The notes beneath the pieces were generated by a model, which was not told where the DNA came from, made no database searches, and saw only the letters and a program-made list of their open reading frames with translations. Shown one piece after another: positions 16,881 through 19,793 of a stretch of DNA of 35,963 bases. The translations under genes and the position numbers were made by a program. The stretch's first letter is position 1. Each line of letters begins with the position of its first letter. The DNA is from Vicinamibacteraceae bacterium. GTDB lineage: Bacteria; Acidobacteriota; Vicinamibacteria; Vicinamibacterales; JAFNAJ01. The DNA lies in contig JAHDVQ010000017.1 of assembly GCA_023384595.1 (NCBI GenBank), forward strand, positions 4,480-40,442, written 5' to 3'.

Positions 16881-18314
16881 TCACTCGCAGCCCTGCCAGT
16901 ACGCGTCCCAGCGGGCCTCGTTCCCGTCTGGTGACCACGCGAGCGGGACGGTCCGCCCGAGGCAATCGAGCTGCGAGGGATGGAACCGGCGCGAGACGAG
17001 ACCCTCGCGTTCGAGCCGGCCGTGGACGGCCGCGTAGTTGTCGGAGACGCGCACGTCGACGAGGTCGAGCGAGAGGTCGAAGGTGTGGAACACCGCGACC
17101 TCTGCGCAGTTGGTGCGCACCTGGACCTTGCGCTCCGCGACGAGCAACTCGGCGACAATCGGCACCAGGCCGAGCGCGCCGCAGACGTCGGGTCTGGGCA
17201 GCAGGACGGCGCGTCTCTCCCGGCCGCCTGTGAAGTCCGACATGCCGTCACCTGGTGCGCGGCGCGCGCCGGGCGGCAGGTCGAGCACCGTCAGCACGCC
17301 GCGACCGAGTCCGAGGCCGGGGTTGCTGACGCCCGCCAGCAGCAGGTCTCCAGCGCCATCTCCGTCGAGATCGTGCTGAAGGGCACCGTACACCGCGCCC
17401 GGGTGCCAGTACTCCTCCACCAGCCGGCCCGTTCCGGGTTCGAGCAGCGCGACCTGCGAGGGGAACCAGTGACTGTGCCAGGCCACGGCGAGGACCAGCC
17501 GACGGCCTCGCACGTGGAGCGGTCGCACGATCCTCCCCGAGAAGTTCGCGCTGAACTCACGGTGCCGCCACGTGAACGCGCGGCCGTACGTGAAGCGCCA
17601 CCGTTCACGACCATCGGCCTCGAAACAGACCAGTGAGCCGGTCGCCGCTCCGCCCCTGTCGGCGGGGACGTTCACCAGCACCTCGACGCTGCCGTCGCCG
17701 TCGGCGTCGAACACCGCCGCATTGTCGAGCCGCACGCCGGGCAGTTCCCACTGGGGCACGTAGGCCAGGCCCGGCAACACGCGCTCCCAGAGCGCCTGGC
17801 CCGAGACGTTTCGAACGACCACCCGCTCGCCGTCAACCAGGGCCGCATGCGGCAACGCCGCGGGTTCCCCGAGGGCGATGAAGTAGGTCGCGGCGGCCAC
17901 GACGACGGCCGTCGAGAGCAGGACCGCGGCCCACACGCGCCCTTTGCGGGCTCCCGGAAGTGGAACGTCAGGCTCCAGTGGCGTGGGTGAGGCGCCGGCC
18001 CGCCTGCGCTCTCCCGCCGACGCGCCGCCATTTCGCAGCCAGCGCTCGAGTTCCGCGGCGTCGGCGACAGGATGGGACTTCAGGTCGACAGGCAGTTGGC
18101 GGATGGGGATGTCGGTGCGCTTGTGCCAGCGCTGGACCGTGCGGACGTCCACTTCGAGGAACGCGGCAATGGCCTTCCACCCGCGCAGCACGCCGCGATC
18201 GAGTTGCGGAGGGGGTGCTGGCGGCTTCGGAGTCCCCTCGGACACGCTCCCCTGTATACCACAGTGCCGTTGAGCTGGCGCTTCGTGGAGCGATGCAGTC
18301 CGACTCTCAGGCAT
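16881..18314 (-). CDS. N-terminal HTH domain + single TM + C-terminal FG-GAP/VCBS repeat (beta-propeller-like) protein
   Basis: LRGWKAIAAFLEVDVRTVQRWHKRTDIPIRQLPVDLKSHPVADAAELERWL (MerR/excisionase-like HTH); VWAAVLLSTAVVVAAATYFIAL (TM); FDADGDGSVEVLV and HDLDGDGAGDLLLAG (FG-GAP Ca-loop-like). Start codon uncertain. Confidence 0.8.
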   Translation of the reverse strand: MPESRTASLHEAPAQRHCGIQGSVSEGTPKPPAPPPQLDRGVLRGWKAIAAFLEVDVRTVQRWHKRTDIPIRQLPVDLKSHPVADAAELERWLRNGGASAGERRRAGASPTPLEPDVPLPGARKGRVWAAVLLSTAVVVAAATYFIALGEPAALPHAALVDGERVVVRNVSGQALWERVLPGLAYVPQWELPGVRLDNAAVFDADGDGSVEVLVNVPADRGGAATGSLVCFEADGRERWRFTYGRAFTWRHREFSANFSGRIVRPLHVRGRRLVLAVAWHSHWFPSQVALLEPGTGRLVEEYWHPGAVYGALQHDLDGDGAGDLLLAGVSNPGLGLGRGVLTVLDLPPGARRAPGDGMSDFTGGRERRAVLLPRPDVCGALGLVPIVAELLVAERKVQVRTNCAEVAVFHTFDLSLDLVDVRVSDNYAAVHGRLEREGLVSRRFHPSQLDCLGRTVPLAWSPDGNEARWDAYWQGCE

Positions 18315-18387: not shown

Positions 18388-18416
18388 TTGACAGGGTTCG
18401 TGCCGAAACCTACTAT
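18388..18416 (+). promoter_or_regulatory. Sigma70-type promoter of the dcw operon (TTGACA-N17-TACTAT)
   Basis: TTGACA at 18388-18393, 17-nt spacer, TACTAT at 18411-18416, ~37 nt upstream of the mraZ GTG start. Confidence 0.82.
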
Positions 18417-18443
18417 CGGGTGGTCCAAAGTGGACCGAAGTGG
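18417..18443 (+). promoter_or_regulatory. Putative MraZ operator: three 10-bp-phased GTGG boxes (cGGGTGG / AAAGTGG / GAAGTGG)
   Basis: Boxes at 18417-18423, 18427-18433, 18437-18443; spacing and motif resemble described MraZ sites (TGGGA-N5 repeats in E. coli, AAAGTG[T/G] repeats in mycoplasmas). Confidence 0.75.
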
Positions 18444-18452
18444 AGCGACCGC

Positions 18453-18899
18453 GTGCTGCTGGGGAGTCACCAAGCACGAATCGATGACAAGGGCCGGCTC
18501 AAGCTGCCGAGCCAGTTCCGGAACCTCATCGAGGGCCAGTACGGGCGGGATCTGTTCGTCACGAGCACCCACCCCCAGGGCGAGTACATCCGGCTGTACC
18601 CGATGAAGGTCTGGAACGAGCTGGGCGCGAAGCTCACGGCCATGCCATCGACCGAGCGCGCCAGGCTGCGGTTCCTCCAGACGGTGGGCTATTTCGGACA
18701 GGTGGCCGAGCTCGACAACCAGGGACGCGTGCTCGTGCATCCCCGGCTGCGGGCATCGGCGGCGATGGAGGGCGAAGTCGAGGTGCTTGGACAGATCACG
18801 TACCTCGACGTGTGGAACGCGGCGCGGTTCGAGGCGCACCGGCAGAGCGACCCGCTCACCGACGTCGACCTCGACGTGCTGGCACGGTACGGCATCTAG
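18453..18899 (+). CDS. mraZ: Transcriptional regulator MraZ
   Basis: VLLGSHQARIDDKGRLKLPSQFRNLIEG...TVGYFGQVAELDNQGRVLVHPRLRASA aligns with MFMGEYxHxIDEKGRxxxP. GTG at 18453 with GGAG 7 nt upstream preferred over 18420. Confidence 0.93.
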   Translation: MLLGSHQARIDDKGRLKLPSQFRNLIEGQYGRDLFVTSTHPQGEYIRLYPMKVWNELGAKLTAMPSTERARLRFLQTVGYFGQVAELDNQGRVLVHPRLRASAAMEGEVEVLGQITYLDVWNAARFEAHRQSDPLTDVDLDVLARYGI

Positions 18900-18911: not shown

Positions 18912-19793
18912 GTGCACGAGCCGGTCCTGGTTGCGGAGGTCGTCGAGGCCCTGCGGCCCCAGCGCGGTGGCACGTTCGTCGACTGCACGGTGGGGCTCGG
19001 CGGACACGCGCGGGCGCTGCTCGACGCAGGCGCCACGACGCTCGTCGGGCTCGACCGCGATGCCGAGGCGCTGGCGCTGGCGGGCGCGGTGCTCGCGCCG
19101 TTCGGCCCGCGGGTGACGCTGGTCCACGCCGACTATCGCGACCTCGAGGCGGAGCTCGATCGCCTCGGCGTCGGCGAGGTCGACGGCATCGTCGCCGACC
19201 TCGGCGTCTCGTCGATGCAGCTCGACGCCGAGGGCCGGGGCTTCAGCTTCCGCCGCGACGAGCCGCTCGACATGCGCATGGATCGCAGTCGTGGCGTGAC
19301 GGCGGCGGAGTGGATTGCGGCGACAGACGAACGTGCGATGGCCGACGCCATCTTCGCCTACGGCGAGGAGCGGTTTGCGCGGCGCATCGCGCGGCGCATC
19401 GCGCGGGCGCGCGACGAGGCGCCGATTGCGACGACGGGGCAGCTGGCGGCGGTGGTGCGGCAGGCGGTGCCCACGCGCGGCTACCAGCGCATCGACCCGG
19501 CGACGCGCACGTTCCAGGCGATCCGGATCGCGGTCAACCGCGAGCTCGATCGCCTCGACGCGTTTCTCGAGGCGGCGGCGGGACGGCTGGCCGTGGGCGC
19601 ACGGCTCGCGATCATCTCGTTCCACTCGCTCGAGGATCGCGTCGTGAAGCACACCTTCCGCGCGATGGTCGCGGCGGGCCGGCTGGCGCTGGGGCTCGTC
19701 ACGAGGCGGCCCGTCGTGCCGGGCGACGAGGAAGTCGGGCGCAACCCGAGGGCGCGCAGCGCGAAGCTGCGGGTGATGGAGAGGCTGGCATGA
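18912..19793 (+). CDS. rsmH: 16S rRNA (cytosine(1402)-N4)-methyltransferase
   Basis: MHEPVLVAEVVEALRPQRGGTFVDCTVGLGGHARALLDAG...DGIVADLGVSSMQLD...GRGFSFRRDEPLDMRMD...IISFHSLEDRVVKHTFR. Confidence 0.97.
   Translation: MHEPVLVAEVVEALRPQRGGTFVDCTVGLGGHARALLDAGATTLVGLDRDAEALALAGAVLAPFGPRVTLVHADYRDLEAELDRLGVGEVDGIVADLGVSSMQLDAEGRGFSFRRDEPLDMRMDRSRGVTAAEWIAATDERAMADAIFAYGEERFARRIARRIARARDEAPIATTGQLAAVVRQAVPTRGYQRIDPATRTFQAIRIAVNRELDRLDAFLEAAAGRLAVGARLAIISFHSLEDRVVKHTFRAMVAAGRLALGLVTRRPVVPGDEEVGRNPRARSAKLRVMERLA

Follow-up and report, generated by a model that had tools for sequence, protein, structure and literature searches.

MraZ is a known DNA-binding protein and forms an oligomer of AbrB-like domains. 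Several of its structures have been solved, among them 1n0e, 9qlg, 9qlr and 9sx6. In Escherichia coli, MraZ binds direct repeats in the promoter region of the dcw cluster and represses the cluster (Eraso et al. 2014, as described in papers citing it). In Burkholderia cenocepacia, EMSA and 5′-RACE located the MraZ-bound repeat behind the −10 hexamer, where it overlaps the mapped transcription start site (PMC7761207). MraZ also represses the cluster in Mycoplasma genitalium (PMC8475190), and the Mollicutes site AAAGTG[T/G] is attributed by the same paper to Fisunov et al. 2016.

Here we analyze a 35,963-nucleotide stretch of DNA (the window) from a Vicinamibacteraceae bacterium. Its dcw promoter (Pmra) lies on the forward strand and, read from the sequence, comprises the −35 hexamer TTGACA (18388–18393) and the −10 hexamer TACTAT (18411–18416) separated by a spacer of 17 nucleotides. 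This promoter matches the consensus at 10 of 12 positions and is the sole one found between 18200 and 18600 when both strands were scanned (0.1 expected). Directly after TACTAT, three 10-bp units spanning 18417–18446 read CGGGTGGTCC AAAGTGGACC GAAGTGGAGC. Each of them is a putative MraZ site with a GTGG core: box 1 at 18420–18423 (unit 18417–18426), box 2 at 18430–18433 (unit 18427–18436) and box 3 at 18440–18443 (unit 18437–18446), all on the forward strand. The Shine-Dalgarno sequence GGAG (forward strand, 18442–18445) has two nucleotides in common with the core of box 3 and lies 7 nucleotides 5′ of the start codon. The promoter, the three phased boxes and the Shine-Dalgarno sequence had been listed in the initial annotation, and they are confirmed base for base. 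Judged from the position of the −10 hexamer, transcription is predicted to start on the forward strand at about 18423 (± 2 nucleotides), 7 nucleotides past the last −10 base and on the final base of the first GTGG. The predicted mraZ leader of about 30 nucleotides agrees with the 30–34 nucleotides that are the rule among relatives. Two details of the window count against the reading as an MraZ operator that is given below: box 1 follows the −10 hexamer by only 3 nucleotides, one fewer than the norm of the clade, and the base after it is T where the clade usually has A.

This element is very probably the dcw operator by which MraZ is predicted to bind and repress its own promoter. It is arranged as in E. 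coli and B. cenocepacia and is thus ordinary in kind. The E. coli K-12 Pmra, which was compared by reading the sequence NC_000913.3, likewise carries three GTGG(G) boxes with a GTGG-N6 period, directly behind the −10 hexamer and 5′ of the mraZ start. In contrast, its box 1 begins 7 nucleotides past the −10 hexamer TAAACT, compared to 3 in the window, its boxes read GTGGG instead of GTGGA, and its mraZ starts with ATG instead of GTG. Furthermore, box 3 of E. coli ends well before the Shine-Dalgarno sequence, which in the window lies inside box 3. A DNA similarity search of E. coli against the promoter region gave no match. The PmraBc promoter of B. cenocepacia is similar in its MraZ-bound tandem repeats, in which 7 nucleotides plus a spacer of 3 make up 10 bp, and in their location behind the −10 hexamer. 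It differs in having four repeats and a transcription start site 100 nucleotides upstream of the start codon, so that neither the Shine-Dalgarno sequence nor the start codon is overlapped. In the Mollicutes, direct repeats with an AAAGTG core resemble the Vicinamibacterales consensus AAAGTGGA. A further likeness, stated for M. genitalium, is that the genome has no other such site. These bacteria are phylogenetically remote and wall-less, and the comparison with them covered the repeats.

The mraZ gene (forward strand, 18453–18899) has a GTG start and encodes a protein of 148 amino acids, the predicted repressor of the boxes. The Pfam MraZ family (PF02381) matches it in two stretches with 64 bits against a cut-off of 23 (E = 1e-17, residues 1–72). 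Each half-domain contains a D-x-x-x-R motif, and these residues (D11..R15 and D88..R92) are invariant in 30 relatives. mraZ is present in all 60 sampled genomes of the family and order. It is the first gene of the cluster and is followed by rsmH (mraW; forward strand, 18912–19793), ftsL and ftsI, with mraY further on. In three genomes (G080/L065, G092/L066 and G121/L067), two adjoining mraZ genes lie on one strand, and the phased boxes are clearest before one of them; these genomes and G115 have four MraZ domain matches each. On the minus strand of the window, a divergent open reading frame of 477 amino acids without Pfam match (16881–18314) starts about 75 bp from the dcw −35 hexamer, and its N-terminus is helix-turn-helix-like (GWKAIAAFLEVDVRTVQRW).

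The open reading frame as supplied began at the GTG at 18420. The initial annotation considered this start likely wrong and placed it at 18453, and our results bear this out. The GTG at 18420 is in frame, but it lies inside box 1 and 5′ of the predicted transcription start. The Pfam match begins at residue 1 of the shorter protein, and the relatives align from the same codon. In addition, an in-frame stop occurs between +1 and the start in 54 of the 91 relatives whose start codon is in the usual position, so 18420–18452 is not coding.

How much of this pattern could be chance, or a compositional repeat in a GTG-rich leader? The pattern GTGG-N6-GTGG-N6-GTGG matches once in the window and never in 100 dinucleotide shuffles. 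Its single match in the 4.83-Mb genome is the dcw site, yet the reversed control pattern matches five times, so that GTGG triples by themselves are not rare genome-wide. What sets the boxes apart is their place right behind the mraZ −10 hexamer and their conservation. Among 109 mraZ upstream regions of the order Vicinamibacterales (duplicates removed), three 10-bp-phased TGG boxes occur in 100, in one register to the −10 hexamer, which supplies the conservation that the initial annotation had left to a motif scan of related genomes. Moreover, the boxes are missing where mraZ is missing. The conservation rules out a chance repeat, an origin to which we assign next to no probability.

In these relatives, TTGACA is exact in 100/109 upstream regions and the spacer is 17 nucleotides long in 96/109; the −10 hexamer reads TACTAT in 48 and TACCAT in 22 of the 109. 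All three boxes contain the full GTGG in 60/109 upstream regions. TGG-TGG distances of 10 were counted 218 times, and no spacing outside the series 10, 20 and 30 was counted more than 8 times. In the 95 best upstream regions, aligned on box 1, TGG is invariant in every box, as follows from their selection; an A comes after each GG in about 80%. Box 3 is preceded by an AAA-like spacer, which agrees with the AAAGTG core of the Mollicutes site (PMC8475190). It counts against an MraZ operator that just one or two boxes are clear in some relatives (for example L006, L055 and L056). In genus g7, a fourth GTGG in phase continues into the start codon. A TT located about 6–7 nucleotides 5′ of the −35 hexamer, within an ATTTTG-like stretch, is conserved in 84–86 of the 95 and is not obvious in the window; it is possibly an UP-element-like contact.

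Further GTGG triples in the relatives occur at about the control rate and have dissimilar, mostly GC-rich spacers, and for these reasons we claim no wider MraZ regulon. In genome G009, a motif GTGGGAGAACGTGG... recurs at unrelated places (C13:6347, C44:67168, C102:3528, C155:21216 and C230:1304).

The link between boxes and protein is also seen where the gene has been lost. mraZ was undetected in 19 of 199 genomes of a phylum-wide sample. Whole genera (g75 and g105) have lost it while keeping rsmH and a promoter-like site, for instance G068, G095, G149 and G158. Nine mraZ-less genomes from families f25, f35 and f44 were scanned by a simple pattern match within 600 bases upstream of rsmH, and all nine have a promoter-like site TTGAC-N17/18-TANNNT. 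Phased boxes 5′ of rsmH are absent from all nine, with best scores of 16–21 compared to a median of 26 in genomes with mraZ; in five mraZ-bearing sisters from f35 and f44 the boxes scored 23–26. The boxes thus go with mraZ while the promoter stays, which ties them to the MraZ protein.

This co-loss also bears on a reading in which the G-rich repeats form a promoter-regulating G-quadruplex, as proposed for the PmraZ promoter of Staphylococcus aureus, where a quadruplex-forming G-rich stretch downstream of the mraZ promoter has been reported (PMC11796246). The regular spacing of the GG tracts would suit such a structure. However, a quadruplex needs neither the fixed 10-bp period, nor the invariant T before GG, nor the A after it, and all of these are conserved. 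Most relatives have just three isolated GG pairs, and the loss of the boxes together with mraZ points to a protein. We therefore regard a quadruplex as very improbable.

Under the preferred reading, that of a MraZ operator, the following sequence of events can be proposed. The near-consensus sigma-70-type promoter would drive mraZ, rsmH, ftsL, ftsI and the genes beyond. MraZ would dock on the three GTGG boxes, which lie one helical turn apart on one face of the DNA, from about −3 to +24. The docked protein would cover the start site and the initially transcribed DNA. RNA polymerase could then neither open the promoter nor escape from it, and transcription of mraZ itself and of the cluster would be lowered. 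From the position of the boxes, we infer a steric block of initiation.

The initial annotation suggested that repression might also act at the level of the leader, and this part is not borne out. In its fuller form, the idea would be that the repeats act in the mRNA, with access of the ribosome to the Shine-Dalgarno sequence barred by MraZ or by some other factor, and that regulation is mainly translational. The boxes do sit in the ribosome-binding site: the Shine-Dalgarno sequence overlaps the core of box 3 in 66 of the 91 relatives that have the usual start position, and GGAG is found in box 3 of 69%, in box 2 of 48% and in box 1 of only 9% of genomes. Against this, the position of the boxes follows the −10 hexamer and not the start codon. 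Box 1 lies exactly 4 nucleotides past the −10 hexamer in 89/109 upstream regions and within 3–5 nucleotides in 91%, whereas the stretch between box 3 and the start codon is anywhere from 10 to 84 nucleotides long and comes within one nucleotide of its commonest length in only 64%. A fixed gap on one side and a variable distance on the other argue that the boxes are held to the promoter and RNA polymerase, not to the ribosome. The boxes are far from the start in relatives such as L050, L035 and L169. Other classes of Acidobacteriota likewise have them behind a promoter, at a greater distance from the start codon. Furthermore, box 1 extends 5′ of the predicted +1 and MraZ binds DNA. Folding of the leader is unremarkable (z = −0.45 in the window, −1.35 to +0.84 in six leaders), and a search of the leader against Rfam gave no match. 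Taken together, mainly translational control by the repeats appears very improbable. The overlap of the Shine-Dalgarno sequence with box 3 is better taken for sequence economy than for a further level of repression; box 3 would carry the Shine-Dalgarno sequence because the distance from the −10 hexamer to the start codon is short in Vicinamibacterales.

This economy goes further in part of the order. Box 3 apparently serves as both operator and ribosome-binding site in Vicinamibacterales and, in some relatives, as start codon as well. In 18 genomes the usual start position has no ATG, GTG or TTG. An RTG or TTG in box 3, in frame 12, 15 or 24 nucleotides upstream, is the only or nearest start in 14 of these 18. 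Thirteen cases are clear (L005, L007, L012, L014, L019, L021, L026, L029, L043, L045, L048, L057 and L183), while L144 is ambiguous, as other in-frame starts lie nearby. In L151 the start is probably CTG. The lineages with a start in box 3 comprise all five f5 genomes and members of f2, f9 and f12, hence at least four families. On the MraZ tree, which is built from only 146 columns, the box 3 start needs seven changes, at least four of them forced by well-supported branches, which suggests several independent shifts. The Shine-Dalgarno sequence of such starts would be box 2 (GTGGAG), and several of these genes have a weak one only. The frame of box 3 is associated with loss of the usual start (Fisher test, p = 0.0005), a value that ignores kinship and is not proof; there is also some circularity in it, since any gene that lacks its usual start has to have another.

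The start codon of mraZ itself is commonly weak, being GTG or TTG in 79 of the 91 genomes with the usual start; the same holds for mraY in 2 of 30 genomes and for rsmH in roughly 40%. Tuning is a plausible role for a weak start in a gene whose product represses it. RsmH, the product of the next gene, methylates C1402 of the 16S rRNA. In E. coli, non-AUG initiation is altered in an mraW (rsmH) mutant, and loss of MraW raises MraZ (PMC8475190). Since RsmH alters non-AUG initiation there, feedback of RsmH on mraZ is conceivable. In Vicinamibacterales, where the operator is merged with an mraZ start that has stayed weak and non-AUG, repressor output might then respond to RsmH in a second, translational feedback loop, a speculation that we consider rather unlikely. 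Many relatives have a second rsmH-like gene elsewhere in the genome (41–45% identity). As for mraY, families f5 (G007, G019, G029, G038 and G047) and f11 (G013, G033 and G059) have only a distant mraY-like gene of about 40% identity, which is either well away from mraZ or on a different contig, and it seems on this ground that mraY was replaced outside the cluster.

These findings extend the MraZ operator to Vicinamibacterales, an order within Acidobacteriota that has become known chiefly through metagenomes. The loss of the boxes along with mraZ and their lock to the −10 hexamer give strong comparative support to MraZ occupying the transcription start site. The merging of operator, Shine-Dalgarno sequence and start codon would explain why automatic gene callers can misplace the mraZ start in this order, and its apparent repetition across lineages indicates that the constraint of an operator and a translation start can share the same bases.
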